Assembly: GCF_007747215.1 (NCBI RefSeq)
Contig: NZ_CP036273.1
Location: forward strand, 2,030,322 to 2,094,321
Length of the DNA: 64,000 nt
From: Urbifossiella limnaea
Lineage (GTDB): Bacteria > Planctomycetota > Planctomycetia > Gemmatales > Gemmataceae
Reading direction: 5' to 3'
The notes beneath the pieces are model-generated. The model did not search any database and was not told the DNA's origin. It saw nothing but the letters and a program-made list of their open reading frames with translations. Position numbers and translations under genes: made by a program. Shown piece by piece: positions 1,203 through 30,860 of this stretch; the stretch's first letter is position 1, and each line of letters opens with the position of its first letter.

Positions 1203-2576
1203 TTAGAAGCTGACGTTCAAAAAACTCATGGCCTCCACGGCCCACGGCCGCGGGCCGACGACGGGCACGCTGACGCCGGCGTTCAGGGCCGTGCGGCCGA
1301 ACCGGAGCGTGAGGCCGCCGTTCACGTTCACCTGGTCGGGGAAGTACACCAGGCCGTTCGGGTCGCGCTGGTTGAACGGCGTCCGCAGGTGGACCTCGGC
1401 CCGCGGGATGACGCCGGTCAGGATGCCGGTCGGGTTCTGGTACGCGAAGTAGCCGACGCCCAGGCTCGCCCCGTACACGGTCGGGTCGCGCGAGTCGGTC
1501 GGCACGATCAGGTTCGTGATCCCCTGCACGTACCCGGCGTCAAACATCCGCACGAACCCGAGCCACGGCTGGAACAGCGTCGAGTGCGGGGCGGCCGAGC
1601 CGTCCAGGAGAATGACGTCGCCGCCTCCCCCGCCAGTCGGCGTGGTAACCACGAGGCCGGCCGACGCCAGGTTGCCGGTCTCCAGGTCGTTGTAGAAGGC
1701 GTACTTGAACAGCACGGACAGGTCGCCCACGGTCTGCGACGCGTACCCGACGGGCCCGTACTGCTGGATGTAGGGGAGTCGCATGCCGATCGAGGCGTCG
1801 CCGTCGAGGAGCGTGTACTCGAACCCGGCCATCTGCCGCTGCACGTCCGAGCCGCCGGTGTCGGGGTTCAGCGAGTAGCCGGCGTTCGAGTAGAACTGGT
1901 ACCCGAAGTACAGGCGGTCGGTCGGCCGCGGCGAGTCGTTGTCGGTGATCTGGATGCCGCTGTACCGCGACGCGGCCGGCAGCAGCACCTGCGCCGTCCG
2001 CGGCACGTAGACCGTGCCCGTGGTCTGTGTCGTTGCGATCACCGGGTCGAGTACGAACACCGGGTCCTGCACCACCACCGGTGTGGTGATGACGATCGGT
2101 TGGCCGGACCCCCCGGAGCCGCCCTCCTGGGAGATGACGATCGTCCGGTTGAAGCCGATCACCCGCGGCGTGGTGCCGACCTGCCGCTGCGTCGTGCCGA
2201 CGATCTGCTGCGTGAAACCGGTCGGCACCGTCACCGGGTCGTAGCCGACGACGACGGTCCGGCGGTAGAAGCCGCCGATGTTGTCGCCGTCGAAGTTCTC
2301 GTTGTACGACCGCGCCGCGAAGCCGCCGGCCTCGGTGAGGCGGCCGAACTCGGGGGGCAACAGGCGGTCGACCGGGCTCGGCGTCTTAGGGTCGGGCAGC
2401 TTGGGGTCGGGCAACTTGGGGTCGGGCTGTTTCGGCACGACCGGCGGCTGCTTCGGCTGCGCCTCCTGCTCGAACACGGAAATGAAGCTCGCCGGCAACC
2501 GGTCGAGCGGTTGCGCCTGGGCCGCGGCTGGCAGAAGCGAGAAGGCCAGCACCGCCGTCTTCATCCGCAACTGCAT
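1203..2576 (-). CDS. Secreted outer-membrane beta-barrel-like protein
   Basis: This 457-aa protein starts at ATG 2576, preceded on the minus strand by a GGGAGG-type ribosome site; a longer start at 2618 lacks one. The N-terminus (MQLRMKTAVLAFSLLPAAAQA) is a clear signal peptide. A short low-complexity linker follows (K-L-P-D-P repeats, seen as tandem DNA repeats near 2390–2435). The rest is rich in Tyr/Phe/Asn/Gly strands and ends in ...FLNVSF. A C-terminal Phe after alternating hydrophobic residues is typical of outer-membrane barrels. No enzymatic motif is visible. Related planctomycete proteins are annotated only as hypothetical, so an outer-membrane role is inferred from signal peptide, composition and C-terminus. 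Confidence 0.75.
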   Translation of the reverse strand: MQLRMKTAVLAFSLLPAAAQAQPLDRLPASFISVFEQEAQPKQPPVVPKQPDPKLPDPKLPDPKTPSPVDRLLPPEFGRLTEAGGFAARSYNENFDGDNIGGFYRRTVVVGYDPVTVPTGFTQQIVGTTQRQVGTTPRVIGFNRTIVISQEGGSGGSGQPIVITTPVVVQDPVFVLDPVIATTQTTGTVYVPRTAQVLLPAASRYSGIQITDNDSPRPTDRLYFGYQFYSNAGYSLNPDTGGSDVQRQMAGFEYTLLDGDASIGMRLPYIQQYGPVGYASQTVGDLSVLFKYAFYNDLETGNLASAGLVVTTPTGGGGGDVILLDGSAAPHSTLFQPWLGFVRMFDAGYVQGITNLIVPTDSRDPTVYGASLGVGYFAYQNPTGILTGVIPRAEVHLRTPFNQRDPNGLVYFPDQVNVNGGLTLRFGRTALNAGVSVPVVGPRPWAVEAMSFLNVSF

Positions 2577-2739
2577 CGCCACCCCTCCCGGCGGGTCAAT
2601 CCGGAACCGTCGCATCACCCTGCTGAATCGGCACGGACGGCCCGCTCGGTCGATCCGGCCCGGAGGGAGAATGAGCGTACTTCGCCTCGGGGGTGTTACA
2701 GGCGGTACAGCTTCACAACTACGTCGTAGGTGTGGTGAT

Positions 2740-2784
2740 CATTGTGTCCACGAGTCCCCCCCCAGGGGGTCCGTGCACACAATG
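2740..2784 (-). terminator. Hairpin between two minus-strand genes
   Basis: An interrupted inverted repeat is seen: CATTGTGT (2740–2747) pairs with ACACAATG (2777–2784), with inner CACG/CGTG and CCCCC/GGGGG pairs. It lies just after the stop of the cytochrome gene (2850) and before the barrel gene. No T-run follows in the minus direction, so it may be a Rho-dependent or RNA-stabilising hairpin. The rest of 2577–2849 shows nothing recognisable. Confidence 0.4.
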
Positions 2785-2849
2785 AGCTAGAAACACGAAA
2801 GAGTATCTGATCGAATCAAGGCGTCGTGCCGGAACTCGTGAGCGGGCCG

Positions 2850-4259
2850 CTACTTCTGAACTGTCACCGGCACGACACGGCGGATCAGCCGCGGCGGGTC
2901 GGCTTTTGCGTCCGCCGGCTCGAACAGGAACCGCGAGATCGGCTGCCGCCAGCGGTCCTCGCAGAGCGGGTTGTGGCGACTCCGTAGGACGGTCGGAGCT
3001 GGCACGTCGACGTCCGACGCGAACAGCACGAAGTAGTCCGTATTGGAATCTTCGTCGCCACTCGGGGTCACCGAAAACGGCGTACTCATCCGCGGGCCAA
3101 GGAGCGTCGCACCGGCGGTGATCGCGGTGCGCTCCAGCACCTGCACCTTCGTGTAGCCGTCGGACTGGACATGAAGCGCCAGCAACCGCAGCGGCCGTGT
3201 CGCGGTCACGCGGAGCTTGAACGGCTCGCGCGCCCTCACCTCCGCCCGCCGCGTCTGGAAGCCCTCGCCGACCACCACCTCGGCCTTGAACGCAGGGTCG
3301 TCGGCGTCGGCGCCGTACCACGACTCGGGCGGGCCGGCCGCAGGACCGCCGAAGAACCGCCCCGGCCGCGGGCCGCACGGCGGGTCGCCCGGCGTCAGCA
3401 ACTCCACCAACTTCCGCACGTCGGTCGTCAGCGGCGCAGTCGGGGCGAGCGCCGCGGCGAGCCAGTCGCCGCGGATCACCGGCACCTTGCGGACACCGGT
3501 CAGGCGGGTCAGGTTCTTGCCGAGGTCGCCGGTCCACGTCGCGTCGGCGACCGGGTACTCCAGCAGGATCACGTCGAACGCCGTGAGCGCGTGGGCGTTG
3601 TTGCGCGGGCCGCCGGCCTCGACCCGGTCGAACAGCTTGCCCTTGTCCCATCCGGCGTTGCGGAGGTCGAGGCGGAAGACGGTCGCGGCGGGGTCGGCGG
3701 GCACGAGCGGCACGTCCTTGCCGCTGGCCCGCTGGAGCGCGGCACGGAGCTTTTCCTCGGCGGCGCGCAGGTCCGGCGGCGCGGCACCGTCGCGGACGAG
3801 GTGCGCGAGCGACAGGTAGCGCAACGCCGGCTTGTCGGCGTCGTCCTTCGTCCGCCAGTCGGCGAACGCCGTGTCGGCGGCGTACCGGTCGTCGAACGTG
3901 TGCGGGTAGCCGGGGGCGCCGGCCGTGACCCACGCGGTTAGCGTCTTGATTTCCTCATTCGTCGGCCGCGGCCGGCCGCCGGGCGGCATCGACCCGTCGC
4001 GGAGCAGGTCGAGCAGCAGCGACTTCGGCGGGTCGGCGGGGTTGACGAGCGGGACGGGGTAGGCGGGGGCGGTGAGTTTCGGGTGGTCGAGGACGGACAC
4101 GTCGCCGCGGCGCGGCTTGTCGCCGTGGCAGGCGGCGCAGTGGCGCTTCAAGATGTCGCGGGCGCGGACGGCGAGGTCGCCGCGGTCGCGGGGCGACAGG
4201 TCGGGCGCGGCCGCGGCGGGCGCGGCGGCGACGAGAAGGACGGCGAGGGCAGTGCGCAT
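2850..4259 (-). CDS. Secreted c-type cytochrome (PSCyt-like) protein
   Basis: This 469-aa protein starts at ATG 4259 (MRTALAVLLVAAAPAAAA, signal peptide); the upstream ATG at 4304 has no better support. Around residues 35–45 is one CxxCH heme motif (C-A-A-C-H-G) in the context RARDILKRHCAACHG. Together with a later GSMPPGGRP segment (a Met axial-ligand region) this is the planctomycete cytochrome c (PSCyt1-like) domain. The remaining about 350 residues have no motif I can name. The protein probably acts outside the cytoplasm as an electron carrier or heme-bearing scaffold. It lies downstream of the caspase gene on the same strand, separated by a strong hairpin. Confidence 0.75.
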   Translation of the reverse strand: MRTALAVLLVAAAPAAAAPDLSPRDRGDLAVRARDILKRHCAACHGDKPRRGDVSVLDHPKLTAPAYPVPLVNPADPPKSLLLDLLRDGSMPPGGRPRPTNEEIKTLTAWVTAGAPGYPHTFDDRYAADTAFADWRTKDDADKPALRYLSLAHLVRDGAAPPDLRAAEEKLRAALQRASGKDVPLVPADPAATVFRLDLRNAGWDKGKLFDRVEAGGPRNNAHALTAFDVILLEYPVADATWTGDLGKNLTRLTGVRKVPVIRGDWLAAALAPTAPLTTDVRKLVELLTPGDPPCGPRPGRFFGGPAAGPPESWYGADADDPAFKAEVVVGEGFQTRRAEVRAREPFKLRVTATRPLRLLALHVQSDGYTKVQVLERTAITAGATLLGPRMSTPFSVTPSGDEDSNTDYFVLFASDVDVPAPTVLRSRHNPLCEDRWRQPISRFLFEPADAKADPPRLIRRVVPVTVQK

Positions 4260-4277
4260 GTCGGTGGCTCGGGGCGT

Positions 4278-4323
4278 CGCCGGTTGCGGCGTAGCGGGCA
4301 CCACCGCTACGCCGCAACCGGCG
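4278..4323. repeat. Perfect 19-bp inverted repeat with 8-nt loop
   Basis: CGCCGGTTGCGGCGTAGCG (4278–4296) is followed by 8 nt and then its exact reverse complement (4305–4323). It sits between the stop of the caspase gene (4339) and the start of the cytochrome gene (4259), both minus strand. No T-run follows it in the minus direction; the short A-run at 4324–4327 would be a U-run only for minus-strand RNA before the hairpin. It could be a terminator, an attenuator in the cytochrome leader, or a binding site. Confidence 0.6.
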
Positions 4324-4338
4324 AAAACAAGAAGCGAA

Positions 4339-7300
4339 TTACCGGCTCACCACCGCCGCCGACGGCGGCCGGCGTGGGAACGTGATCGGCTGTTGCGCGT
4401 CGTCGCGCTGCCCGGCCGCCCGCAGCAACACCGGCAACCGGCCCGACACGTACTCCACCAACTCGTCGCCGCCTAGCGCCCCGTCGGTGTCGGCGTCGGC
4501 GCGGCGGAAGCCGGGGCCGAGCGCGTCCAGCAGCGCCGCGGTGAACACGCCGCCGCCGACGCGCGGGTGCTCGTAGGAGAGCTGCCCCTGGTCGCAACTG
4601 CACACCACGAACGGGCCGTGCCCGTCCGGCACGCAGCGGCGCACGAGGTTCGCCGCCGCCGCCTCCCCCGAGTGGCAGGCGTCCAGGAGTACCACCTGTC
4701 GGCAGTTCACCTTCGCCAGCGCGGCGAACAGCTCCTCCGCGGCCAGCCCCGTCTTCTCGGCAGCGGCCCGCGCGTAGTCCGGGCCGCACAGCATGAACCG
4801 GCCGGCCCCCGTCACCACGCCGCGCGCCCGCTCACTGCCGCCGCCGGCCTTCGCGTCGGCGCCGAGCAGGTCGCCGTGGCCGGCGAAGAACACGACCATC
4901 AGGTCGTCCGGCTTCGCCGTCGCCGCGGCCTTGTCGATGGCGGCGAGCAGCTTCGCGCGGGTGGCGTCGGCGTCGAGGCGGAGGTCGATGCGGGCCTGCT
5001 TGAAGCAGCCGCCCTCGTAGCGGCGGAAGGCGTCGGCGATGCCGCGAGCGTCCTTGTCGGCGAAGATCAAGTCGCCGAGCGCCCGCGCCCCGCCGGCCGC
5101 CTTGCGGTTCCCGGAGTAGTCGTTGATGCCGACCGACACGGCCACGAGGTCCGTCGGCGGTGCGGGCCGCGGGTTCCGCACCACGCGCGAGTCTTCGGAG
5201 CGCCCGCCGAGCGCGTTGTACGTCACCACCGCGAGCCGGTTTTCGCCCGCCCGCAGCGCCGCCAGCGGCACGGTCACCGTCTCGTCGAACACGTCTTTGC
5301 CGCCGGCCGGCCACGACTTGTAGCGGTGGTCGTTCAGCCACAACTCGACGCGCTCCGGCACCAGGTCCACGTTCGACCCGCGCCGCCGCACCACGACGCC
5401 GGCCGTGACGCCCTGCGGCCCGGCCTCCGTCTCCGTCACGCCGATCCGCACCGGGGCCGGCTCGACCTGTGTAAACGACCGCGGCACCGGGTTCTCGCCG
5501 AGGGCGAGTTTCAGCGCCCCGGCCAGGTCGCGGGCGCCGAGCAGTTTCTCGATCACGTCCGGCCGGTGGAACTGCTTCTCGAACTGTTGCAGCGGGTAGA
5601 ACTCCGGCCGCACGCCGGGCGTGGGGGCGTTGACGTGCCAGCCGACGAGCCGGTCGCCGTGGGCGCTGGCGGTGTGGTAGTACGAGCCGTGCCACGACCA
5701 CGCCACCCACTCGGTGAGGCGGCCGCTGTCGTGGTAGCCGGCGAACCACTTCCACACGGGGCGCTGCCGCACCGTCGTGAGCGTCTCGCGCCGCGGCTGC
5801 CCCGGCTGTTGCAGCCCCAGGAAAAGTTCCGTGCCGGACACCGGGCTCGCCAGCGCCTTCATCGCATCGTCGGCGATGCCGGCTTCCTTCCGCCCCACGC
5901 GGCGCTCGTACAGCGGCCGCCCGCCGACGGCCAGGAAGTCGAGCCGGTCGCCGACGCGCAACCCGGCCTCCCACGCGGGCGAACCCGTGTCCACGGCGGT
6001 GACTGCCGGAACGCCTTCTCGTACCGCCACGACCGCACCGAGGTTGTTCCGCGAACCCCAGTCGGTGAGGCTCCACGCGGCGACGGTGTGGTCCGCCCCG
6101 CCGGTGACGAACCACGACCCGTCCGCGGCCGCGACCACCGACAGTACCTCGCCGGCGTGGCCGGTGTACAGTCGCGCGCGGACGGCTCCTTCGGGCCGCA
6201 GTTCGAACAGCGACGCGCCGTAGTAGTGGCCGACGATCACGCGAGTCGGCTTGCCGTCGCGCGCCGGTAGGAACGTGTAACACCTCGAGGCCTGGTCGCG
6301 GTTCCAGTCGAGCGTCAGGGGGTGCTTCACGTCCGGCATTCCGGGCCGAGACAGGACTGCGTGCCACAGGAAGCTGTCGACCGTGTCGGGCTCGACACGC
6401 CAGCCGTCGGCGCCGGTCAGGACACCGACCCAGTTCGTGTCGGCCCGGGTGGGGGCCAGGCGGTCGAGGTCGAACTTGGTCCAGTCGCCGGAGCCGCGGG
6501 CGTTGGGGTCGGTCGGTCGCGGCGTGCGGGCGGTTTGCACGCCGAGCACCTTGCCGTCAGCCGAAAGGTTCACGGCCCAGTTCCGCCGCCCGGCCCCGCG
6601 GACTGTGACCGCCGGTCCGCCGATCGGGGTGAACGTCACCTCGTCGGCGTCGCCGCCGGCGATGGCGAGTCGGCCGTCGGGGTGGAAGGCGAGCGCCTCG
6701 GCCGGGCCGGTGTACGGCAGGATGGCCGGCTTCGCGTCGCCGTTCGGCGGCGGGTCGTAGAGGTGGATGTCGTCGCGCCCCTCGAGGTAGAACCGCGGCT
6801 TCCCCTCCGCCGCGGGTAGCACCTCGGCTACGCCGACGGCCAGCCTGCTGGTTTTCGCGTCCCACGCGAGGCTGCGTGGCAGGCGGGCGGCCGGCAACTG
6901 ACGACGATGCTTCTGGGCGCCGTCGGCCGAGACGATCAGGACCTCGGGCATCCCCTCGGTCGCGGCGGCTAGCCACTTCCCGTCGGCGCTCCACGCCGCC
7001 CGGTAGACCGGCTGCCGCTGCCCGTCGTTGACGACGAACAGTTGCCTCGTCGTCGCTTTGCCGTCGGCCGTTTCGGAGAGCGGCCCCGCGAGGTCGGCGG
7101 CCCGCACCTCGCCGCTCTGGGCGACGGATTCGAGCGTGGCCGCGTCGGTGAAGCGGACCGCGCGTGGGATGTTCAGCTCGGTGAGGGTATCGTTAAGGAG
7201 TTTGCGTGGGTCGTGCCGGCCGGCCCACAGCGGCCGCGGCGACGGCGGGGCGTCCGGCTCGTGCTCCTTCAGCAGCGTCGGCTCCCACACCCACAGGCTG

Positions 7301-7797
7301 CCGTCGGCGGTGCCGAAGCCGACGCGCTTCCCGTCCGGCGCGAAGGCCACGGCCGTGACCGCGTTAAAGTTGTCGACGCCCGGCCGCGACTTCGGCCACG
7401 TCAGCCCGACCAGGTCGCCGGTCTCGCGGTCGATGACGGCGACGGTACTCGGCCGCATCCCCAGGCCGCCGACGGCGACCAGGTTGCCGTCCGGCGACAC
7501 GGCGATTGCCTTGATGCCGCCGCGCTGCTCGCGCCACGCCCGCCACCGCAGCACGCGGCCTTGGGCCGGGTCGGTGTCGAGCCCCTTCGCCGTCACCGGC
7601 CAGACGCGGACGACCTTGTCGTCGCCGGCGGCGAACAGGAACTTCCCCGCCTTGTCGAAGACGAGGGCGTCGCAGGTGCCGACGCGGCCGCCGGCCTCGA
7701 CGACGACCTCGGGCTCGTCGCGGCTGCGGCGGTCGGCCTGCTGGGCGGCCGCCGGTACTGCGAGGACCAGAGTGACGATCGCGGCGGCGCGAAACAT
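4339..7797 (-). CDS. Secreted WD40–PDZ-like–caspase (peptidase C14) protein
   Basis: This 1152-aa protein has a signal peptide (MFRAAAIVTLVLAVPAAAQ). Residues about 30–600 carry WD40-type repeats (for example GKFLFAAGDDKVVRVW and a later TGGADHTVAAWSL). Around 600–660 is a PDZ-like segment (GSPAWEAGLRVGDRL). The C-terminal about 300 residues are a caspase-fold peptidase. The first strand reads VAVSVGINDY, the catalytic His lies in FFAGHGD (His974) and the catalytic Cys in LLDACHSG (Cys1041), so both residues are intact. WD40–caspase fusions are common in planctomycetes and are thought to act as propeller-regulated proteases; substrates are unknown. The start at 7797 faces the kinase start at 7871 with only 73 bp between, a likely divergent promoter. 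Confidence in the domain call is high; the biological role is inferred. Confidence 0.92.
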   Translation of the reverse strand: MFRAAAIVTLVLAVPAAAQQADRRSRDEPEVVVEAGGRVGTCDALVFDKAGKFLFAAGDDKVVRVWPVTAKGLDTDPAQGRVLRWRAWREQRGGIKAIAVSPDGNLVAVGGLGMRPSTVAVIDRETGDLVGLTWPKSRPGVDNFNAVTAVAFAPDGKRVGFGTADGSLWVWEPTLLKEHEPDAPPSPRPLWAGRHDPRKLLNDTLTELNIPRAVRFTDAATLESVAQSGEVRAADLAGPLSETADGKATTRQLFVVNDGQRQPVYRAAWSADGKWLAAATEGMPEVLIVSADGAQKHRRQLPAARLPRSLAWDAKTSRLAVGVAEVLPAAEGKPRFYLEGRDDIHLYDPPPNGDAKPAILPYTGPAEALAFHPDGRLAIAGGDADEVTFTPIGGPAVTVRGAGRRNWAVNLSADGKVLGVQTARTPRPTDPNARGSGDWTKFDLDRLAPTRADTNWVGVLTGADGWRVEPDTVDSFLWHAVLSRPGMPDVKHPLTLDWNRDQASRCYTFLPARDGKPTRVIVGHYYGASLFELRPEGAVRARLYTGHAGEVLSVVAAADGSWFVTGGADHTVAAWSLTDWGSRNNLGAVVAVREGVPAVTAVDTGSPAWEAGLRVGDRLDFLAVGGRPLYERRVGRKEAGIADDAMKALASPVSGTELFLGLQQPGQPRRETLTTVRQRPVWKWFAGYHDSGRLTEWVAWSWHGSYYHTASAHGDRLVGWHVNAPTPGVRPEFYPLQQFEKQFHRPDVIEKLLGARDLAGALKLALGENPVPRSFTQVEPAPVRIGVTETEAGPQGVTAGVVVRRRGSNVDLVPERVELWLNDHRYKSWPAGGKDVFDETVTVPLAALRAGENRLAVVTYNALGGRSEDSRVVRNPRPAPPTDLVAVSVGINDYSGNRKAAGGARALGDLIFADKDARGIADAFRRYEGGCFKQARIDLRLDADATRAKLLAAIDKAAATAKPDDLMVVFFAGHGDLLGADAKAGGGSERARGVVTGAGRFMLCGPDYARAAAEKTGLAAEELFAALAKVNCRQVVLLDACHSGEAAAANLVRRCVPDGHGPFVVCSCDQGQLSYEHPRVGGGVFTAALLDALGPGFRRADADTDGALGGDELVEYVSGRLPVLLRAAGQRDDAQQPITFPRRPPSAAVVSR

Positions 7798-7870
7798 GGG
7801 GGCGCCCTCGTGGTGTGGGGTCAGGGTAGGCGGCGGGTGTTAGAATGGCCCCACCCCCGCGGACGCACCG
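7798..7870. promoter_or_regulatory. Divergent intergenic region, caspase / kinase
   Basis: Only 73 bp separate the divergent starts of the WD40–caspase and kinase–FGE genes, so promoters for both probably lie here or overlap the coding ends. I see no confident −35/−10 pair; this is a positional inference. Confidence 0.35.
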
Positions 7871-9679
7871 ATGAACCAGCCCGACCAGACGCAGGTCAAC
7901 ACCGGCGACCGCCCCCCGGTCGACGCCTCCGGCACGAACGCCGAAGCGACCCGCACCGCCGGCCAGGTCGGCCCGCCGCCGCCGGTGCCTGCGACCGAAG
8001 CCGACCGCACCGACGCCGTGGTGTCGGTCGCCCAGCAGTACGAGTTGGTGCGCCAGCTCGGCCGCGGCACGTTCGGCGAGGTGTGGCTGGCCCGCAAGAA
8101 CCCGAGCGGCATCGAGAAGGCTGTGAAGGTGCTGCACCAGCCGGCCGACCAGGACACGGCCAAGCGCGAGCTGAAGTCGCTGGAACTCATCAAGAACCTC
8201 CGCCACCCGTACCTGCTGGCCACCGAGGACTTCTGGGTCGGCGGGAACAAGCTGTACATCGTCACCGAACTGGCCGACGGCACGCTCCGCGGCCGGATGA
8301 AGGAGTGCATCGCCGAAGGGAGGCCGGGCATCCCGCTGGACGAGTTGTTGGTCTACCTCCACGAGTCGGCCGAGGGGCTCGACTACCTTCACCAGAAGCA
8401 GATTACCCACCGCGACGTGAAGCCGGACAACATCCTCGTGGTGAACCGGCACGCCAAGGTCGCCGACTTCGGACTGGTGCGGCACCAGGCGGCGGCGGTC
8501 GAGGCGGTCAGCTTCGCGGGCACGCCGGCGTTCATGGCCCCGGAAATCTGGCTCGGCGAGGGCGGCCCGGCCAGCGACCAGTACGCCCTCGCGGTCAGCT
8601 ACGTCGAGCTGCGGCAGGGGAAGACGCCGTTCGCGTTCGCCACCGACGGCGTGATGGCGGCCCACGTCGAGGGGAAGTTCGGCTTCGACGACCTGATCCC
8701 GGAGGCCGAGCGGGCGGTGCTGCGGAAGGCGATGGCCCGCAAGCCCGAGGACCGCTACCCGACGTGCGCCGCGTTCGCCGCCGCGCTCGCCGATTCGGAA
8801 GGGCGCGCGGTCGTGCGGTCCGACACGCCCGCGGGCAAGCCGCAGCCGAAGTGGCTGATTCCCGCCGCGGCAGCGGCCGTCGTGCTGCTGGGAGTGGGTG
8901 TCTACTTCGGATTCTTCGCGGAGAAGGGCGGCTCACGCGCCGGCGAGACGGCCACGCCCGCCGGGGCCGTCGCGGAGCCCGGGACGGAGCTGGTGACGTT
9001 CCTGGACGGGCGGCAAGCGCCGCAGTGGGTGACGCTGACTCGCGGCCCGGAGACGATGCGCTTCCGGCTGATCACGCCGACGGGCGGGCCGGGCACGCCG
9101 ATGCCGTTCTACCTCGCGGCGGCGAAGGTGTGGAACCAACTCCACCAGGAGGCGTGCAAGGCCGGTGGCGTGCCCGACCCGGACCGCGAGCAGCCCGGCG
9201 GCCCGGCGGCGCCGGTCGTCAACGTGACCGCGACCCAGGCCGCCGCCGTCGCCGCGGCGATGGGCGGCCGGCTGCCGACGCCGGACGAGTGGGACCACGC
9301 CGCCGGCTTCCACGACCGCGGCGGGCTGGCCGGCCCCCTGCGGGTCGGCGGCGCGGCGCGCGTCGGGCTGAAGGAGCCCGCCCCCGCCACCGGTCCCGAC
9401 GCCGACCGGTCCGCGAACGCGCTTGGCCTCCTCGACATGGGCGGCAACGGCCGCGAGTGGACCGCCGCCGTCCTGCCCGGCCGCGGACAGCCGCCGCTGC
9501 CCGTCGACGGCGCCGCGTTCGATCCGGAGGCGCGGGTGGTACTGCGCGGCCGGGCGTACTTCCTCCGCACGCCGCTGACGTTCGCCGACATGGAACTGGA
9601 GCGCGACGAGCCGCAGACGCAGTTCGCCCGCGAGAAGAGTGCGTACACCGGCTACCGCGTCGTGCTGCCGGTGCCGTGA
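7871..9679 (+). CDS. Membrane Ser/Thr protein kinase fused to FGE-sulfatase-like domain
   Basis: This 602-aa protein has a Hanks-type kinase domain at about residues 57–320. The Gly loop is LGRGTFGEV (64–69 region), followed by the AVKVL Lys, HRDVKPDN (His180–Asp182) and DFG at Asp199, all intact, so an active kinase is expected. A single membrane segment follows from about Trp328 (WLIPAAAAAVVLLGVGVYFG). The exported half (about 370–602) resembles formylglycine-generating enzyme/SUMF1 folds (GGRLPTPDEWDHAA, LGLLDMGGNGREWT, YTGYRVVLP). I do not see the usual active-site cysteine pair, so it is more likely a ligand-sensing FGE-like domain than an enzyme. It starts 73 bp from the divergent caspase gene and ends 68 bp before the VWA–UDG–ART gene, which suggests one signalling unit. 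Confidence 0.92.
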   Translation: MNQPDQTQVNTGDRPPVDASGTNAEATRTAGQVGPPPPVPATEADRTDAVVSVAQQYELVRQLGRGTFGEVWLARKNPSGIEKAVKVLHQPADQDTAKRELKSLELIKNLRHPYLLATEDFWVGGNKLYIVTELADGTLRGRMKECIAEGRPGIPLDELLVYLHESAEGLDYLHQKQITHRDVKPDNILVVNRHAKVADFGLVRHQAAAVEAVSFAGTPAFMAPEIWLGEGGPASDQYALAVSYVELRQGKTPFAFATDGVMAAHVEGKFGFDDLIPEAERAVLRKAMARKPEDRYPTCAAFAAALADSEGRAVVRSDTPAGKPQPKWLIPAAAAAVVLLGVGVYFGFFAEKGGSRAGETATPAGAVAEPGTELVTFLDGRQAPQWVTLTRGPETMRFRLITPTGGPGTPMPFYLAAAKVWNQLHQEACKAGGVPDPDREQPGGPAAPVVNVTATQAAAVAAAMGGRLPTPDEWDHAAGFHDRGGLAGPLRVGGAARVGLKEPAPATGPDADRSANALGLLDMGGNGREWTAAVLPGRGQPPLPVDGAAFDPEARVVLRGRAYFLRTPLTFADMELERDEPQTQFAREKSAYTGYRVVLPVP

Positions 9680-9747
9680 CAGTCGCTGCGCACCTTGCGA
9701 GTGTGCGTCCGCCCGGGGATACTCCCCCTCACCCCGGGGGGCCGCCG

Positions 9748-12700
9748 ATGACCACCATCCTGCAACCACACTTCGCCCTCAGCACGCATCTCGCGCCCGG
9801 CAAGACGCCCACCGCCGCCGACGTGCTCCTCACGTTCCGCGTCGAGCGCACGGGCGCTCTCGCCGGTCCCGGCCCGCGGCTGCCGCTGAACCTCGGCCTC
9901 GTCCTCGACCGGTCCGGCTCCATGGCCGGCAAGCCGCTCGACCAGGCCGTCGCCGCCGCCGGGATACTCCTCGACCAACTCGACGGGCGCGACACCCTCT
10001 CCGTCGTCGCGTTCGACCACACCGTCGACACGGTCGTGCCCCAGGAGCCGGTGGCCGACCGGGCTGCCGTGATGAAGCGGCTGAGGAAGGTCCGCCCCGG
10101 CGGCTCCACGAACCTGTTCGACGGGTGGGACGCCGGCTGCGGCCAGGTCGCCTGTTGCCGCGCCGACCATGCCGTCAACCGCGTACTGCTCCTCACCGAC
10201 GGCGCCGCGAACCACGGCGTCACCGACCCGGCGAAGGTTGCCGGACACGCGGCATGGTGGGCCGCCCGCGGCGTCTCCACCACCACGCTCGGCTTCGGCC
10301 GCGACTTCGAGGAAGACCTGCTGCTGAAGATGGCCGAGGCGTCGGGCGGCAACTTCTACTACATCGAGACGCCGGAGGACGCCTGCCAGGTGTTCCAGAT
10401 CGAGGGCGAGACGCTCACGTCCGTCGCCGTTCGGAACCTCGTACTCACGCTGACGCCCGCCGCCGGCAGCGGCGTCGTCGTGAAAGACGTGTTGAACCGC
10501 TACGCCACCCGGGAGACGCCCGGCGGCCTGGTGGTGAGCGCCGGCGACGTGTACGCCGCCGAGGACAAGATTCTCGGCGTGGCAATCGAGGTTCCGCCGC
10601 AGAGCCGTGGCCGGACGGCGGTTCCGCTCGTCGAGGTGAGCTACACCTGCGACCTGATTTCGCACGGCGGCCGAACGGTCCGCGCGGCGGGATCGTTCAC
10701 GGTCGCCGTGCCGGTGAGCACGGCCCCCGCGGTCCGCGACGTGGACGCGGTGCGACAGGCGGCCCGGCTCCGCGTCGCGGCGGCGAAAGAGGACGCGGTT
10801 CGCCACTACGACGCACTCCACACGAAGGACGCGGAGGCGGTGACGCGCGCCGCCGCGGACGGGCTCCGGCAGCAGCAGCTAGACGAGGAGTTCGACCTGG
10901 CCGAGGAGGCGGCGCAGCTCGACTACTACGCCGACCGCTTCGCCGCCGGCGGGCTCAGCGGCCCGGACCGCAAGACGCTCCGCGACCAGGCCTACCAGGG
11001 CCGCACCCGCGGCCGCGACGACCTCGCCGCCCGCGGCAGCGGCGGCGGCTCGGCGCACTCGCTTCCCACCACGGCCGAGGTCGGCAACGGCGTCGAGGTG
11101 CGCTGCGTGCGCGACGGCGGCAAGCTCCGCGTCGAGCCGGTCAGTGCGGGGTTCGAGCGCGAGTTCCGCGTCCTGTTCCCGCGCGCGGTTCGCGAGCCGG
11201 GCGTCCACTACGTCGTGGACGGGCTCGAGCTCTCTGCGAACGGCACGTTCTACAAGCCGTCCGGCGCGATCAAGCGACTGACAAAGCCGACCGCGGTCCA
11301 CAGCGCGGACCCGTCCGACCCGCTGAAGTTGACGGAACTGTTCGCCGGCGGCGGGGAGCCGTGGCTGCCGGTGCTCAAGCCGGTGATCGAGGTGCAGCCG
11401 CGGGCCGGCGAGTTCATCGGACCGAACCGCGACGCGGCGGTCGTGCCGATGCGCGAACTCACGTTCCAGGCGCTGAAGCCGAACCCGCCGGAGAAGTGGA
11501 AGGTGGTGGTGTTCGGGCAGAACCCGTACCCGCGGGCCGAGTCGGCCACCGGCATTGCCATGTTCGACAACACGTTCGCCGACTGGGCCGACAGCAAGTT
11601 CGGCAAGGTCACGTCGATCCGCTGCGTCATCAAGGCCGCGGTGATGTCGAAGCACGGGCTACCGAAGTCCACCGGCATCGCCGACATCCGCAAGCTGCTG
11701 GCGAAGGAGAAGGCCGTTCAGCCGCCCGAATGGTTTCAGGCGATGCTGACGCAGGGCGTGCTGCTGCTCAATGCGGCGCTCACCGCCAGCACCGAGAAGG
11801 GCGCCCCGGCCGACCCGCACGCGGCCTTCTGGCGGCCGGTCGTCGAGAAGCTCGTCGAGGAGATTCTGAAGGCGAAGCAGGCCAGCGCCGAGCCCGCGGA
11901 CAGGGGCGTCGTGTTCGGCTGGTGGGGCGCCCACGCCCGCAACCTTCGCTCGCTGGTCGAACGGCTTCAGCAGAAGTACCCGGGCGTGAGGGTGCGGCAC
12001 GTCGATCACTGCAACCCGGCCGCGCAGGGCGACGTCTTCTGCGACGGCGACCACTTCGGGAAGATCAACGCGGCCCTGCGCGGCGTCGGCGCCGGCGAGA
12101 TCGACTGGCTGCCGAGTGTGGGCTGGAACGCGGGCGCGAGCGACGCCGAGCGGATGGGTGCGTTCATCACGCAGACGCAGGAACTGCACAAGCTCTACCT
12201 GGAGCGGTTGCAAGAGGTCGCGGCCGAACTGGCGGCGCCGCTGCCGGCCATTGTCGGCGTGCTGGCGTCGCCACTGTTGGCGTTCCCCGACGCGGTCGGG
12301 CCGCTGGTCCCCGCGGTGCCGGGGCTCGACTTCTACCTGAAGCGCGCCCACCAGTACGGCCAACTCCAGGCCGCGCGGCCGGGCACCGACCTGAGCGCGG
12401 ACGAGATCGCCGCCGTGTACCTGTACACCACCGAGTCGTCGTTCCACCGCCGGCTCAACGCCGTGCTGCGCGACCCGGACCGCGACCACGCCAGGCCGTA
12501 CTTCGGCTACCTGCGGCTGCTGCTGACGGCGCTGCCGAGGCTGGCCGGGTACACCGGCAGCCTGTGGCGCGGCGTCGCGGCCGACCTGCGGCGGCAGTAC
12601 CCGAAGGGCGGCACGGTGACGTGGTGGGGCGTGTCGTCGTGTACGGCCAAGCGGTCGGTGGCGACGAGCTTCATGGGCGGCACCGGCAGGCGCACGCTGT

Positions 12701-12876
12701 TCGAGATCACACCGGCGCAGGCGGTCGGCATCCGCCGCTACTCGGCGTTCACCGGCGAGGACGAGTACGTGCTGTTGCCCGGGGCGCGGCTGGCCGTGAC
12801 GGACGTGACGTCGGAGCCCGGAGGGCTCGCGACGATCCGGCTGCGCGAGGAAGCGGGCGGGCGCGAGGTGTCGTGA
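9748..12876 (+). CDS. VWA – uracil-DNA-glycosylase-like – ADP-ribosyltransferase fusion protein
   Basis: This 1042-aa protein starts at ATG 9748; the frame is open far upstream but that part overlaps the kinase gene. Residues about 45–215 form a von Willebrand A domain with an intact MIDAS motif (DRSGSM, Asp54). About 440–510 is a small unnamed region. About 580–800 matches the family-1 uracil-DNA glycosylase fold: GQNPYP (590–595, usual GQDPYH), QGVLLLNAALT, FGWWGAHARN, and HCNPAA from His754 where HPSP is usual. The catalytic Asp is replaced by Asn, as in MUG/TDG enzymes. About 860–1035 is an arginine-type ADP-ribosyltransferase with the full R-S-E set: LWRGV (Arg941), GVSSCT (Ser963–964), GEDEYVLLP (Glu1004, Glu1006). 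The protein may recognise DNA through the UDG fold and modify a target by ADP-ribosylation; that is inference. No signal peptide is seen, so it is probably cytoplasmic. Its stop is 5 bp from a convergent gene. Confidence 0.88.
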   Translation: MTTILQPHFALSTHLAPGKTPTAADVLLTFRVERTGALAGPGPRLPLNLGLVLDRSGSMAGKPLDQAVAAAGILLDQLDGRDTLSVVAFDHTVDTVVPQEPVADRAAVMKRLRKVRPGGSTNLFDGWDAGCGQVACCRADHAVNRVLLLTDGAANHGVTDPAKVAGHAAWWAARGVSTTTLGFGRDFEEDLLLKMAEASGGNFYYIETPEDACQVFQIEGETLTSVAVRNLVLTLTPAAGSGVVVKDVLNRYATRETPGGLVVSAGDVYAAEDKILGVAIEVPPQSRGRTAVPLVEVSYTCDLISHGGRTVRAAGSFTVAVPVSTAPAVRDVDAVRQAARLRVAAAKEDAVRHYDALHTKDAEAVTRAAADGLRQQQLDEEFDLAEEAAQLDYYADRFAAGGLSGPDRKTLRDQAYQGRTRGRDDLAARGSGGGSAHSLPTTAEVGNGVEVRCVRDGGKLRVEPVSAGFEREFRVLFPRAVREPGVHYVVDGLELSANGTFYKPSGAIKRLTKPTAVHSADPSDPLKLTELFAGGGEPWLPVLKPVIEVQPRAGEFIGPNRDAAVVPMRELTFQALKPNPPEKWKVVVFGQNPYPRAESATGIAMFDNTFADWADSKFGKVTSIRCVIKAAVMSKHGLPKSTGIADIRKLLAKEKAVQPPEWFQAMLTQGVLLLNAALTASTEKGAPADPHAAFWRPVVEKLVEEILKAKQASAEPADRGVVFGWWGAHARNLRSLVERLQQKYPGVRVRHVDHCNPAAQGDVFCDGDHFGKINAALRGVGAGEIDWLPSVGWNAGASDAERMGAFITQTQELHKLYLERLQEVAAELAAPLPAIVGVLASPLLAFPDAVGPLVPAVPGLDFYLKRAHQYGQLQAARPGTDLSADEIAAVYLYTTESSFHRRLNAVLRDPDRDHARPYFGYLRLLLTALPRLAGYTGSLWRGVAADLRRQYPKGGTVTWWGVSSCTAKRSVATSFMGGTGRRTLFEITPAQAVGIRRYSAFTGEDEYVLLPGARLAVTDVTSEPGGLATIRLREEAGGREVS

Positions 12877-12881
12877 CAGGC

Positions 12882-14705
12882 TCACGGCACGAGGCGGCGG
12901 TGCCGGGCGGCTCGGTCGCGGTCGCCGCCGCGCTCCAGCAGGTCGACCAGTTCCGACCGCAGGCGCGGGTTCATGCTCCCGATCGACGCGGCGGTTTCGA
13001 ACAGCCGGAGTGCCTCGTCACGGCGGCCGCGGGCCAGCTCGCAGCGGGCCAGGTAGCTCCAGTCGGCGGACGTGCGCCGGATGCGCGTCAGCTCCCGGAA
13101 GTGGTCGGCGGCGGCGGCGTAGTCCCCGCGGCGGTAGGCGTCGTCGCCCAGGAGGAACAACGCGTCGGTGCGAGGCTCGGGGTCGAGTGCGGCGTCCTTC
13201 AGCGCCGCCTCGGCGTAGGCCCGGGCGTCGGGGAGGCCGAGTCGGAACCCCGTGACCGCCAGCGACGCCGCGACCTCCGAGTCGCGGGCGCCGGCGTCCC
13301 AGGCCTCGGCGAGCAGGTCACGGCCGCGGCGGGTCAGGTCGCGGGCCGCCGGGCCGATTTCGGTGTGAGCCCCGCCCTTCGTGTACGCGATGCCGAGGGC
13401 GCGCTTGCGGGCCGACTCGCCGAACCGAGACAGGTCGTGGAACGGCTCCAGCACCTCGCGGGCGCTCCCGCGCGGCGGCGGCGGGGGTGCGGCGTCCGTG
13501 TGGATCCCGACGCGGTGGTGACTGAACGCGACGTGCGGGATGTCCGTCCTCCCGGTCGGCATGTGGCAGTGGACGCAGCCGTTCTCGGGGTCGGCGGCGC
13601 GGCGGGCCGCGGGTGGGGACTTGCAGGCGGCTTCCGTGTGGCACGTCAGGCACACGCCGCGGAAGTGCGCCGCGCGCCCGGCCGCGTCCGGGAAGCCGTG
13701 CGGGTTGTGGCACGTCGCGCACGTCAGCGTGCCCGAGCGCTGGTAGCACTTGCTCTGGTGCATCTGCTCGACGTGGCCGGTGACCGTCATCCCGCGGTCG
13801 GGGTCGACGAGGCTGAAGACGACGTGGAAGTCTTCGAGCGGCAGCCCGGGCCGGTAGTCGGCGATGGTGCGGCCGGGGGGCGAGACGAACGTGTCGCCGG
13901 CCAGGTGGCACTGCTGGCAGACGGCCTCGGCGAGCGCCCGCGGCAGCCGGCGGGGGTTCACCACGGTGAGGTCGCCGGGGCCGTCGCGGGCCGGGTGCTC
14001 GCCGGGCGTGTCCTGCCAGTGGCTGACGTGAAGCTCCCCCGGCCCGTGACACCGCTCGCACCCGATCGCCGCCTCGACGACCCGGTACTTGTGGGTACTT
14101 CTGTCAAGCCGCTCGACGCGGCCCATGTGGCAGTAGACGCACAGCGGGCCGATCGGCCGCTCGAACCCGCGGTGGACGGGCTTGTCGTACCCCGGCGACA
14201 TGCCCCACCCCTGGCGGGACGCGTACCACGTCACCGGCGACTCGGCGAGGAACCCGTCGGCGTCGCAGGCGAACGTCTGGGCGTGGCGGCCGGAGCCGAG
14301 GGCGAAAGCCACCGGCAGGTCGGTGAGGACCGCGTCGGCGCGGGCCGGGTCGAGGAGGAACTCGCGGTGCCGGGGCGTGCCGTCGACTCGCCGTACCTCG
14401 AACCGGCGGCCGGAAGCCGCGTGCTCGAAGGTGCCGTCGGGCGCCCCGGGCGCGGCGGCCGGTGCCGCCGACCGGCTCATGCCGGTCTTTAGGTACGAGG
14501 CATGGTCCTTGTCGTGGCAGCCGACGCAGACGGCGGAGCCGACGTAGGCGACGCCGGGCCGAGTGTTGAGGTATGGGCTCGCGGCGGTCTCCGGCGCGGC
14601 GGGCTCGACCACCGGCCGTGGCCGAAGCCAAAGCCACCACAAGCCCGCGGCGACGACCGCGATCGCGGCGACGACTCCAGCAACCCGTACGAGCGAGGGG
14701 GGCAT
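12882..14705 (-). CDS. Seven-heme c-type cytochrome with C-terminal TPR-like repeats
   Basis: This 607-aa protein starts at ATG 14705; the longer 14777 start would run through the terminator. The N-terminal anchor (about residues 5–27, VAGVVAAIAVVAAGLWWLWL) suggests a membrane-attached periplasmic protein. Seven CxxCH motifs follow: CVGCH, CVYCH, CERCH, CQQCH, CATCH, CLTCH and CVHCH, the last in CVHCHMPTGRTDIPHVAFSHH with possible distal His ligands. The spacing resembles cytochrome c554-type multiheme proteins. The last about 150 residues are helical TPR-like units (FLLGDDAYRRGDYAAAADHF). Such proteins carry electrons in the periplasm; the partner is not encoded nearby. It is convergent with the VWA–UDG–ART gene. 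Confidence 0.9.
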   Translation of the reverse strand: MPPSLVRVAGVVAAIAVVAAGLWWLWLRPRPVVEPAAPETAASPYLNTRPGVAYVGSAVCVGCHDKDHASYLKTGMSRSAAPAAAPGAPDGTFEHAASGRRFEVRRVDGTPRHREFLLDPARADAVLTDLPVAFALGSGRHAQTFACDADGFLAESPVTWYASRQGWGMSPGYDKPVHRGFERPIGPLCVYCHMGRVERLDRSTHKYRVVEAAIGCERCHGPGELHVSHWQDTPGEHPARDGPGDLTVVNPRRLPRALAEAVCQQCHLAGDTFVSPPGRTIADYRPGLPLEDFHVVFSLVDPDRGMTVTGHVEQMHQSKCYQRSGTLTCATCHNPHGFPDAAGRAAHFRGVCLTCHTEAACKSPPAARRAADPENGCVHCHMPTGRTDIPHVAFSHHRVGIHTDAAPPPPPRGSAREVLEPFHDLSRFGESARKRALGIAYTKGGAHTEIGPAARDLTRRGRDLLAEAWDAGARDSEVAASLAVTGFRLGLPDARAYAEAALKDAALDPEPRTDALFLLGDDAYRRGDYAAAADHFRELTRIRRTSADWSYLARCELARGRRDEALRLFETAASIGSMNPRLRSELVDLLERGGDRDRAARHRRLVP

Positions 14706-14735
14706 GGGAGTTAGGATAGCCGCCGCGGGGGTAAC

Positions 14736-14759
14736 AAAAAACCCCCGCGGGCGCGGGGG
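14736..14759 (-). terminator. Intrinsic terminator (minus strand)
   Basis: On the minus strand an 8-bp stem CCCCCGCG/CGCGGGGG with a 2-nt loop is followed directly by six T. It lies just downstream of the tRNA-like fragment at 14760–14806 and upstream of the cytochrome start. Confidence 0.75.
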
Positions 14760-14806
14760 TGAGGAGTCGCTTCGCACGGATTCGACTCGGGGGTCAGGGT
14801 TTTGCG
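14760..14806 (-). other. Degenerate tRNA-Cys-like 3' fragment
   Basis: Read on the minus strand, the segment resembles a tRNA 3' half. A GGT-TCGCAAA-ACC anticodon-like hairpin puts GCA at the anticodon positions, and a TCGAATCC T-loop-like stretch follows, then the terminator. The T-stem no longer pairs and no 5' half is found upstream. It closely resembles the better-preserved fragment at 22747–22794, which is also followed by a terminator. I read it as a decayed tRNA-Cys relic or an old attachment site. Confidence 0.4.
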
Positions 14807-24945: not shown

Positions 24946-26373
24946 GTGACCGACACTCGATCCCGTGTCCTCATCGCCGGCTCCCGTACCTTCGCCGACT
25001 ACCCTCTGCTGTGCGCCACCCTCGACCGGCTCCTGGCCGGCCGCGGGCCGGTGGCGGTCGTGTCCGGCGGGGCCGGCGGGGCCGACCGGCTCGGCGAGCG
25101 GTACGCGGCCGCCCGCGGGCTGGCGGTCGAGCGGTACGTGCCCGACTGGGATGCCCACGGCCGGGCGGCCGGCCCGATCCGCAACCGCGAGATGGTCGCC
25201 GGGTGCGCCCTGGCCGTGTTCTTCTGGGACGGGCAGAGCCCGGGCACCGCCGACGCCATCGCCCGGGCGCGCAAGGCGGGGGTGCCGGTCGAGGTCGTGC
25301 GGTACGCCGACCCCGCCCCGCCCCCGGGTACGCCGGCCCCGCCCGCGCGGGCAGTCCCCCAGGCCACCCCGGTCGCGCCCCCGGCCCCGCCGACCGGCGG
25401 CCCGCCACCGCCCCCGGCGCCGCGGCTGCTGGACCGGGTGCGGGACGCCCTCCGGGTGCGGCACTACGCGATCCGCACCGAGCGGGCGTACACCGACTGG
25501 GTCCGCCGGTTCGTCCTGTACCACGACAAGCGCCACCCCGACGGCATGGGGGCGGCCGAGGTGACCGCCTTCTTGACCCACCTGGCGGTCGAGGGGGAAG
25601 TCAGTGCGAGCACCCAGAACCAGGCGTTCAGCGCGCTGCTGTTCCTGTACCGGCACGTCCTCGGGGCCGAGCCGGGGAAGATCGCCGGGGTCGTCCGGGC
25701 CGCCCGCCGGCGGGCCGAGCCGGTCGTCCTGACCCGGCCGGAGGTGACCGCCGTCCTCCGGAAGATGCCGGACCCGTACCGGCTGATGTGCGAGTTGATG
25801 TTCGGGAGCGGGCTGCGGCTTATGGAGGTCCTCCGGCTACGGGTCAAGGACATCGACCTGGACCGGGCCGAGATCACAGTCCGGATGGGGAAGGGCGGGA
25901 AGGACCGGCGGACCGTGCTGGCGGAGGCCGTCCGGCCGCGGATGCTGCTCCAGCTGGACGAGGTGCGGCGGGTCCACGAGCTCGACCTGGCGGCCGGGCG
26001 GGGGCGGGTGTGGCTGCCGGAGGCGCTGGCGCGGAAGCTACCGGGGGCGGCGGCCGAGTACAAGTGGCAGTGGGTGTTCCCGTCGGGTAGACTGTCGATC
26101 GACCCGCGAAGCGGGGAGGAGCGGCGGCACCACGCGCACGAGTCGAGCCTGTCGCGGGCGGTGACCGGGGCGGTGGCGGCGGCGGGGCTGTCGAAGCGGG
26201 CGACGAGTCACGCGTTCAGGCACAGCTTCGCCACCCACCTGTTGGAGGCGAAGTACGACATTCGAGTCATTCAGGAGTTGTTGGGCCACGCGAACGTGGA
26301 GACGACGATGATCTACACGCACGTGCTGAACAAGGGGGGGCGGGGGGTGCAGAGTCCGCTGGACGCGGAGTAG
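24946..26373 (+). CDS. intI: SLOG (DUF2493)–integron integrase fusion
   Basis: This 475-aa protein has residues 1–120 matching DUF2493/YspA-type SLOG domains (RVLIAGSRTFADY, VVSGGAGGADRLGERYA, GPIRNREMV). A Pro/Ala linker spans about 122–162. Residues about 163–475 form a tyrosine recombinase of the IntI type. It has Arg291 (SGLRLMEV), His422/Arg425 (HAFRHSFATHLLE), His448 (LLGHANVETTM) and nucleophile Tyr457 (IYTHV). The IntI-specific extra segment is also present (GRVWLPEALARK, then YKWQWVFPS and DPRSGEERRHH). IntI enzymes insert and excise gene cassettes at attI/attC sites. Here the gene points toward the cassettes, the 'inverted' arrangement known from planctomycetes and Treponema. SLOG domains bind nucleotide-derived ligands, so the fusion could make cassette shuffling ligand-dependent; that part is inferred. 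Confidence 0.92.
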   Translation: MTDTRSRVLIAGSRTFADYPLLCATLDRLLAGRGPVAVVSGGAGGADRLGERYAAARGLAVERYVPDWDAHGRAAGPIRNREMVAGCALAVFFWDGQSPGTADAIARARKAGVPVEVVRYADPAPPPGTPAPPARAVPQATPVAPPAPPTGGPPPPPAPRLLDRVRDALRVRHYAIRTERAYTDWVRRFVLYHDKRHPDGMGAAEVTAFLTHLAVEGEVSASTQNQAFSALLFLYRHVLGAEPGKIAGVVRAARRRAEPVVLTRPEVTAVLRKMPDPYRLMCELMFGSGLRLMEVLRLRVKDIDLDRAEITVRMGKGGKDRRTVLAEAVRPRMLLQLDEVRRVHELDLAAGRGRVWLPEALARKLPGAAAEYKWQWVFPSGRLSIDPRSGEERRHHAHESSLSRAVTGAVAAAGLSKRATSHAFRHSFATHLLEAKYDIRVIQELLGHANVETTMIYTHVLNKGGRGVQSPLDAE

Positions 26374-26527
26374 GCCTTCGCAAGGTGCGTTAGCAGGATA
26401 GATTGCAAAGCTGTTCGGATCGAAGTTCGGCGGAAGTGGTTTGTGGCGGAGCTGTTACCGCCGCCGGATCCCCGTCGGTGGCGAAATGTGATAGATTGCA
26501 AAGCCGCAAATCACGCACTGGTTCGGC
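26374..26527 (+). promoter_or_regulatory. attI region and likely cassette promoter region
   Basis: This is the stretch between the integrase stop and the first cassette boundary GTTCGGC (26521–26527). It holds further GTTCGG boxes at 26413–26418 and near 26425, and a 15-bp direct repeat. The cassette promoter should lie here; I cannot fix its −35/−10. Confidence 0.6.
26397..26504 (+). repeat. 15-bp direct repeat in attI region
   Basis: GATAGATTGCAAAGC occurs at 26397–26411 and again at 26490–26504, 93 bp apart. The repeats could be accessory integrase-binding repeats (like DR1/DR2 of attI1), duplicated promoter elements, or regulator operators. Confidence 0.6.
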
Positions 26528-26545
26528 GACGGAGGCGTCTTAGCG

Positions 26546-26962
26546 GTGGCATTCCCCGAACTCGATGATTTCCCGGAGCGGCACCCCGGCCCCTACGAGT
26601 GCCAGATGGGCGGGATCATCACAGACTTGCTGCGGGTGTTCGTCGGCAGGGTGCCGGACGCCGAGAGCCACGCCCGCGTCGCCGAGTTGGCCGCCACGCC
26701 GGCGCGGTGGTCGGCCGGGCACGCGGTGTTCGACGAGATCCGCCGCCGGCTGCTGGCGGCGATGAAGGCCAAGGATGTGCCGCGGGAATGCCAGCACCAC
26801 TTCGAGGAGTCGTGCTGCCAGGCCCTGTACAACGCCACCGCCCCTGCCGACCCGTTCGACCCCGGCTCGGCGTTCTTCGTGGCCCCGCAGGCGCTCGGGC
26901 TGGCGCGAGCGGTCGGGGTTCCCGCCGCGGAGGTCGTGGCGGTGCTGGCCCCAGAGCCGTAG
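26546..26962 (+). CDS. Integron cassette 1 protein, unknown
   Basis: This 138-aa protein uses GTG 26546, 19 nt after the cassette boundary. It is soluble and helical (GGIITDLLRVFVGRVPDAESHARV, AVFDEIRRRLLAAMKAK), with a His/Cys cluster (CQHHFEESCCQALYN) that might bind metal. No family is recognised, which is usual for integron cassettes. Its TAG stop lies 3 nt before attC1. Confidence 0.7.
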   Translation: MAFPELDDFPERHPGPYECQMGGIITDLLRVFVGRVPDAESHARVAELAATPARWSAGHAVFDEIRRRLLAAMKAKDVPRECQHHFEESCCQALYNATAPADPFDPGSAFFVAPQALGLARAVGVPAAEVVAVLAPEP

Positions 26963-26965
26963 CCG

Positions 26966-27074
26966 GCCGAACCCCACGCTGCAGCAGACCGCCAGCTCAA
27001 TCGCGCTTTTCAGCGGCATGGGTGGGCCGGCCCGTGGTACGATTCCCGGGCGGCTGCTGAGCTTTCTGTTCGGC
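26966..27074 (+). repeat. attC site 1
   Basis: R'' GCCGAAC (26966–26972) and R' GTTCGGC (27068–27074) enclose 95 bp. The inner arms CGCTGCAGCAGACCGCC and GGCGGCTGCTGAGC pair with unpaired extra bases, as expected for the folded single strand that IntI recognises. It is nearly identical at its left end to attC2. Confidence 0.85.
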
Positions 27075-27093
27075 GGCGGAGGGCTTACGAAGG

Positions 27094-27588: not shown

Positions 27589-27594
27589 CAGGCG

Positions 27595-27702: not shown

Positions 27703-27716
27703 GGCGGAGGCACTCG

Positions 27717-28187: not shown

Positions 28188-28195
28188 CCCCAAAC

Positions 28196-28290: not shown

Positions 28291-28317
28291 GAGGTCGATC
28301 CACGGAAGCGAGTCCCA

Positions 28318-28743: not shown

Positions 28744-28768
28744 TGGTACGCTGTGGAGCGGGTGCCGC

Positions 28769-30836: not shown

Positions 30837-30860
30837 GTTCGACCGACTGATGATCGGCTT

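Follow-up and report, generated by a model that had tools for sequence, protein, structure and literature searches.

Mono-ADP-ribosyltransferases of the R-S-E type (PF01129) possess Arg, Ser and ExE as catalytic residues, and family-1 uracil-DNA glycosylases (UDG) carry the catalytic motif GQDPY. Pairs of an ADP-ribosyltransferase (ART) and a macro-domain protein are already known. Among macro-domain proteins, SCO6735 from Streptomyces is DNA-damage-inducible from a RecA-NDp promoter and reported to be active on thymidine-linked ADP-ribose, as described in passages of Lalic et al. (PMC5087735) and Hlousek-Kasun et al. (PMC9411070). Here we analyzed a three-gene cluster at positions 4339–12876 of a 64,000-nucleotide stretch of Urbifossiella limnaea (NZ_CP036273.1, positions 2,030,322 to 2,094,321; the whole stretch is called the window below), which encodes a WD40–caspase, a kinase–FGE protein and a protein combining VWA, UDG and ART domains. 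The first-pass annotation had regarded all three genes as one candidate conflict or signalling system. We found that the cluster consists of two units side by side, with the third gene recently added to an old caspase–kinase pair, and that the UDG-ART part of this gene belongs to a widespread family, mainly of soil actinobacteria, which there nearly always stands beside a macro-domain gene. A literature search that covered few subscription papers gave no report of the UDG-ART fusion or its macro pair.

A glycosylase fold joined to an ART and its macro-domain partner

The UDG domain of the window protein was missed by Pfam. It matched NCBIfam NF003592 (E 9e-19, below the curated cut-off), and the family profile retrieved 3tr7 from the PDB sequences (E 5e-15). 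Counted in 85 UDG-ART sequences, the catalytic motif reads GQNPYP in 84 and GQDPYP in none; the 85th is a fragment lacking this region, and its other piece has GQNPYP. The LLLN and HxNP motifs are present in all 85. The ART part keeps its residues as well, with [LV]WRG in 84, WWGVSSCT in 83 and ExE in 84 of the sequences; the misses fall on the contig-cut G159 sequence and, for the Ser motif, also on L157. All 26 members scanned with Pfam were assigned to PF01129, and the ART part of the AlphaFold model is fair, with Foldseek matches to Vis (2e-9), Tre1, XopAI, ExoS, ART2.2 and HopU1.

Relatives of UDG-ART were collected from GTDB contigs (186 stretches), and the best 80, all titled actinobacteria, are the loci counted throughout. 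A macro-domain gene lies 1–522 bp from UDG-ART in 79 of these 80 loci, the miss being L147, where the contig starts 4 bases before the gene match. When the predicted genes up to about six positions away were clustered, the next recurrent neighbour family reached at most 8 of 80. The two genes are divergent in 65 loci and co-directional in 14, and in seven of the latter they are fused in one stop-free frame; on a Streptomyces plasmid such a macro-UDG-ART fusion is annotated as a single coding sequence. Phages hold relatives of the macro partner: the protein encoded at L096 7159–7833 matches phage family phrog_2613 (E 2e-40), and tblastn gave 20 phage records with 31–36% identity, several of which carry a tail or Appr-1-p annotation. 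These give no argument for a phage counter-defence role of the macro protein, as none of the matches listed comes from an actinobacterial phage and the identity is at most 36%.

The region between the two genes often carries a DNA-damage-type promoter motif. Using a RecA-NDp (PafBC-type) consensus and allowing up to 3 mismatches, we found the motif in 34 of the 65 divergent intergenic regions, where it always faces the macro gene and in 10 cases occurs on the strand towards UDG-ART as well, and 5' of the macro gene in all 14 co-directional loci, compared to 2 of 3250 random windows from the same loci; these counts come from related and non-independent actinobacteria and are uncorrected for kinship. 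At 4 mismatches the motif appears in 49 of the 65 divergent regions and in 42 of the 3250 random windows. LexA-like sites were discarded as a candidate, with 2 of 65 against 1.6 expected by chance.

In Planctomycetota the family is rare. In our survey of 95 Gemmataceae genomes, in which G000 is the window's own one-contig genome and G089 a congener (locus L027), standalone UDG-ART is present in G011 (whole gene, 64% identical to the window's) and in G017 (frame-broken, 60%). The actinobacterial relatives are near full length and 68–75% identical to the G011 protein. Both standalone copies have a divergent macro gene beside them, with different flanks; the G017 gene (L025 11069–12800) is split by the frame break and its macro partner has an open reading frame. 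Among 392 genomes drawn from Planctomycetota at large, a match over most of the available length was present only in the window's genome and in G159, whose UDG-ART is cut by the contig end and has roughly 9 kb upstream without a macro gene; four further genomes showed weak matches to part of the UDG only. In a tree with 43 of the 80 actinobacterial rows, the two VWA-fused proteins form a clade (support 100) and G011 and G017 another (98), both beside actinobacterial rows, in a topology that is disturbed by one long branch and does not give root, branch order or direction of transfer. A phage origin was rejected, as tblastn against 50,697 phage records gave one partial match (ART part, 31%) and viral contigs none.

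The cluster in the window and the older caspase–kinase pair

The annotated features of the cluster and its old neighbours are as follows.

1203–2564, minus strand: outer-membrane-type gene, old caspase neighbour (Pfam scan without match; 48–52% identical homologues beside PSCyt1/caspase in the six genomes named below)
2850–4259, minus strand: PSCyt1/cytochrome-c-like gene, old neighbour 3' of the caspase gene (Pfam PSCyt1, E 9e-4, below cut-off; conserved order)
4339–7797, minus strand: probably exported WD40-PDZ-caspase, 1152 aa (open reading frame, Pfam, relatives)
4516–5142, minus strand: Peptidase_C14 domain (Pfam, E 3e-12, above cut-off), His-Cys dyad intact in AGHG and DACHSG (motif check)
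5911–6003, minus strand: PDZ_6 match (Pfam)
6064–7695, minus strand: WD40 region (Pfam)
7837–7851, plus strand: promoter-like block GTGTTAGAATGGCCC, 5' of the kinase gene, kept in window and G089
7871–9679, plus strand: protein kinase-transmembrane-FGE gene, 602 aa (open reading frame, Pfam)
8039–8755, plus strand: kinase domain (Pfam Pkinase, 6e-40), motifs HRDVKPDN and DFG intact (motif check)
8852–8920, plus strand: probable transmembrane helix (strong hydrophobic stretch, residues 328–350; Kyte-Doolittle maximum 2.16 at residue 332)
9119–9664, plus strand: FGE-sulfatase-like domain (Pfam, 5e-15), probably extracytoplasmic, as judged from the likely topology
9695–9723, plus strand: promoter-like TTGCGA-N17-GATACT, 5' of the third gene (VWA-UDG-ART), with a geometry shared by G089
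9748–12876, plus strand: VWA-X-UDG-ART gene, 1042 aa (open reading frame, Pfam, NCBIfam)
9892–10380, plus strand: VWA domain (Pfam, 3e-14), DRSGSM intact, and TDG (motif check)
11053–11295, plus strand: domain X (residues 436–516), elsewhere only in G089 and a G033 WGR-domain protein
11335–12117, plus strand, approximate limits: family-1-type UDG domain, catalytic Asp to Asn (GQNPYP; profiles and motif check)
12379–12849, plus strand: ART domain (Pfam, 1e-9; Foldseek), R-S-ExE residues kept (motif check)

As anatomy the first-pass annotation is sound, while as interpretation it is half right. The three reading frames, the gaps of 73 bp and 68 bp between them and the domain assignments were all recovered, the UDG by NCBIfam and the PDB profile and the others by Pfam, and domain X comes in addition. 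All three genes can be taken as coding because their in-frame third-position GC is 0.93–0.95 and the long overlapping frames are without such a pattern. The annotation had also claimed a signal peptide for the caspase and hence a different compartment from the ART. As judged from the sequence, the N-terminus does resemble a signal peptide and differing compartments are plausible; judged in the same way, the third protein appears to have none. Together with the transmembrane helix of the kinase this suggests that caspase and FGE domain probably face the periplasm and that kinase and ART are probably located in the cytoplasm. A sigma-70 scan of the window gave no site at the scan threshold.

The link between caspase and kinase-FGE stood up well, as the divergent pair is conserved among Gemmataceae. 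Relatives of the caspase occur in 36 of the 95 genomes (E<=1e-30), and we inspected 27 neighbourhoods, namely the window and 26 others, counting pairs and neighbours by tblastn since a gene caller trained on the GC-rich window genome is unsuited to GC-poorer relatives. A tight divergent pair is present in nine (the window, G089, G018, G020, G013, G012, G010, G009 and G011), and in the last six PSCyt1 and outer-membrane-type homologues follow 3' of the caspase gene in the window's order; for G089 and G018 a contig end interrupts this comparison. In two neighbourhoods (G094, G038) an ECF sigma gene stands between caspase and kinase-FGE, and in the remaining 16 these genes are either separated or too close to a contig end for the arrangement to be seen. 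Deeper relatives have an ECF gene beside the caspase (G003, G005, G045, G047, G002) or beside the kinase (G092, G088, G023, G019, G016, G035). As the pair is conserved in Gemmataceae without VWA-UDG-ART, it is older than the third gene.

The VWA part of the third protein recurs by itself in standalone genes of other Gemmataceae (35–43% identity). WGR is a PARP-associated DNA-binding domain, and besides G089 the only further occurrence of domain X is in a planctomycete protein of G033 (L024 7938–9437) that also has a WGR domain and a PQQ-type propeller. Elsewhere in the window, positions 24946–44397 hold a YAcAr SLOG-domain integrase, two large serine recombinases, a bpMoxR-VWA_2 pair (31975–34624), DUF6744 and a group II intron RT-HNH gene, and this region resembles an integrated element, or several, with a MoxR-vWA pair. 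An FGE-sulfatase-DUF6807 fusion gene lies at 54764–57280.

Possible function of the module

The originally proposed single system, in which kinase-FGE would sense and caspase and ART would be effectors in two compartments, was examined through conservation of the neighbourhood. In its favour, the trio exists in a second species: in G089 order and orientation are equal and the three proteins show 72, 75 and 80% identity, while the right flank is unlike that of the window (the left one lies beyond the contig end). However, the full fusion and thus all three genes are found in only 2 of the 95 genomes, both times beside the pair and in the same orientation, whereas seven further tight pairs lack the third gene. 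The older partners of the pair are PSCyt1, outer-membrane-type and ECF genes. UDG-ART in turn occurs without the pair in actinobacteria, and in G011, which has both, they are 3.3 Mb apart. Furthermore, a short block at the start of the kinase gene and a separate one at the start of the third gene are conserved between window and G089, and in G089 a long near-perfect inverted repeat lies between them (L027 5689–5790, -62.7 kcal/mol), which the window lacks. These promoter-like blocks and the hairpin point to separate transcription, so that the evidence leans towards independent regulation, named in the first-pass annotation as speaking against its proposal. A joint function may exist, but one regulated system of three genes now seems quite unlikely to us, and none of the results obtained favours a role in phage conflict.

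Instead we propose, with evenly balanced confidence, that UDG-ART and macro protein form a DNA-guided writer/eraser module for mono-ADP-ribosylation, which has been re-wired in Gemmata beside the old caspase–kinase pair. The old pair would be an envelope-stress or surveillance unit, in which the transmembrane kinase senses through its periplasmic FGE-like domain and is partnered by the exported WD40-PDZ caspase, transcribed divergently with the PSCyt1 and outer-membrane-type genes. In the second unit UDG-ART would be the writer of ADP-ribose. Its actinobacterial forms stand next to the macro-domain protein, a probable eraser or reader, or are joined to it in one chain, and DNA damage probably switches them on. 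The UDG domain, with Asp replaced by Asn and the other pocket motifs kept, most likely directs the ART to altered DNA, such as uracil-containing or abasic sites, where the ART would then mono-ADP-ribosylate a protein or the DNA itself. In the lineage of the window UDG-ART became fused behind VWA-X and ended up next to the caspase–kinase pair, with no macro gene found; binding by the VWA domain, and perhaps phosphorylation by the kinase, may replace the macro protein as control. In line with this, the window's one-contig genome has no PF01661 match. G089 has two, both elsewhere in its genome, and neither genome has a partner-type macro at 1e-8. Gene content, adjacency, promoter motifs and conserved residues are what we observed, and from these we infer every activity, the targeting to DNA and the control by VWA domain and kinase. 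A tentative extension, which we think rather unlikely, takes the module as a bacterial counterpart of PARP signalling, in which a damage-induced writer recognises uracil or abasic sites through a glycosylase fold that binds them with little or no cutting, deposits ADP-ribose and is served by a dedicated macro reader or eraser, while Gemmata would have exchanged the eraser for a VWA switch and coupled the module to a kinase–caspase envelope pathway.

Several observations weigh against the writer/eraser module. No RecA-NDp motif within 3 mismatches is present in the intergenic regions of the window, G089, G011 and G017. In the AlphaFold model the UDG part is poor (mean predicted local distance difference test score, pLDDT, 58.9) with a weak match to vaccinia UDG (E 0.012), and the macro model is also poor (mean pLDDT 55) and unfit for a structure search. 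Strong macro matches (E<=4e-55) occur in 11 Gemmataceae genomes, and all of these except G011 and G017 lack UDG-ART, so the macro gene has other roles as well. Possible erasers do remain in the window's genome, since it has four ADP_ribosyl_GH (ARH) genes. ARTs of the PF01129 type usually modify arginine in proteins, and DNA as their target is thus a guess.

The same adjacency could also belong to a DarTG-like toxin–antitoxin or abortive-infection module, in which the ART poisons cell or phage DNA, the macro protein neutralises it and the VWA fusion acts as a built-in lock. The nearly invariant macro neighbour and the seven fusions would fit this, as would the varying flanks without any other recurrent neighbour, the occurrence of UDG-ART/macro on some records listed as plasmids and the patchy presence in Planctomycetota. 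Nevertheless, toxin and antidote in one chain would be unusual, a DNA-damage promoter facing the macro gene points to repair, PADLOC gave no match for UDG-ART or macro, no full-length relative was found in phages or viral contigs, and the ART is no DarT; we therefore see such a module as possible but somewhat unlikely. Very unlikely, in our opinion, is a repair enzyme in which the UDG is an active glycosylase with Asn for Asp and the ART marks the resulting abasic site. SMUG/MUG-type enzymes do have Asn in place of Asp, LLLN and HxNP are kept throughout, and the PDB relative 5x3g (GQDPYPRPESA) offers the closest motif context, but the exchange is invariant across the family, and three other UDG-superfamily genes exist in the window's genome.

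Comparison with described systems

The interest lies less in the trio than in the UDG-ART/macro module and in its VWA-fused, macro-less form in the window. Its notable feature is a DNA-glycosylase fold joined to a mono-ART, nearly always beside a macro gene and often behind a DNA-damage motif, in antibiotic-producing actinobacteria. If the proposed module is true, bacterial DNA-directed ADP-ribosylation becomes directly testable in tractable Streptomyces, and the Gemmata fusion would be the same module with a changed control part.

With DarTG the module shares, in its actinobacterial form, an ADP-ribosyltransferase gene beside a macro-domain gene and a likely nucleic-acid link, and it differs in the PF01129 ART, the extra UDG domain, the usually divergent arrangement with a DNA-damage-type promoter and the missing macro gene in the window's genome. 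The Streptomyces macrodomain SCO6735 lies behind a RecA-NDp promoter, the motif of which is present at many actinobacterial loci here, but the upstream neighbour named in the passages of PMC5087735 and PMC9411070 is a permease gene instead of an ART gene, and the macro protein described here matched only the yeast protein 1njr among PDB sequences (E<=0.01). Family-1 uracil-DNA glycosylases agree in profile and most motif residues and differ by the family-wide exchange of the catalytic Asp and the ART fusion. The mono-ARTs Vis, Tre1, ART2.2 and HopU1 agree in R-S-ExE residues and fold, whereas here no secretion signal was seen and the ART is linked to UDG, macro or VWA. Brig1, as described in PMC11078745, is a precedent for a member of the glycosylase superfamily in anti-phage defence, although it is nearest to family 4 in that paper and UDG-ART shows homology to family 1 and an ART.

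ECF sigma factors for which control by phosphorylation has been predicted (passages of PMC8999054) recall the ECF genes beside kinase or caspase in deeper relatives of the pair, while none was called in the window's cluster. Finally, the MoxR-vWA and caspase conflict systems of PMC7159879 and PMC8195603, whose texts are without "UDG" or "uracil" and mention "glycosylase" once, as a rare effector of another system, also have vWA fused to an effector and caspase effectors; they differ from the window's cluster by their MoxR gene, since none is present among the six genes scanned at 1203–14777 and a bpMoxR gene lies far off at 31975–33111.
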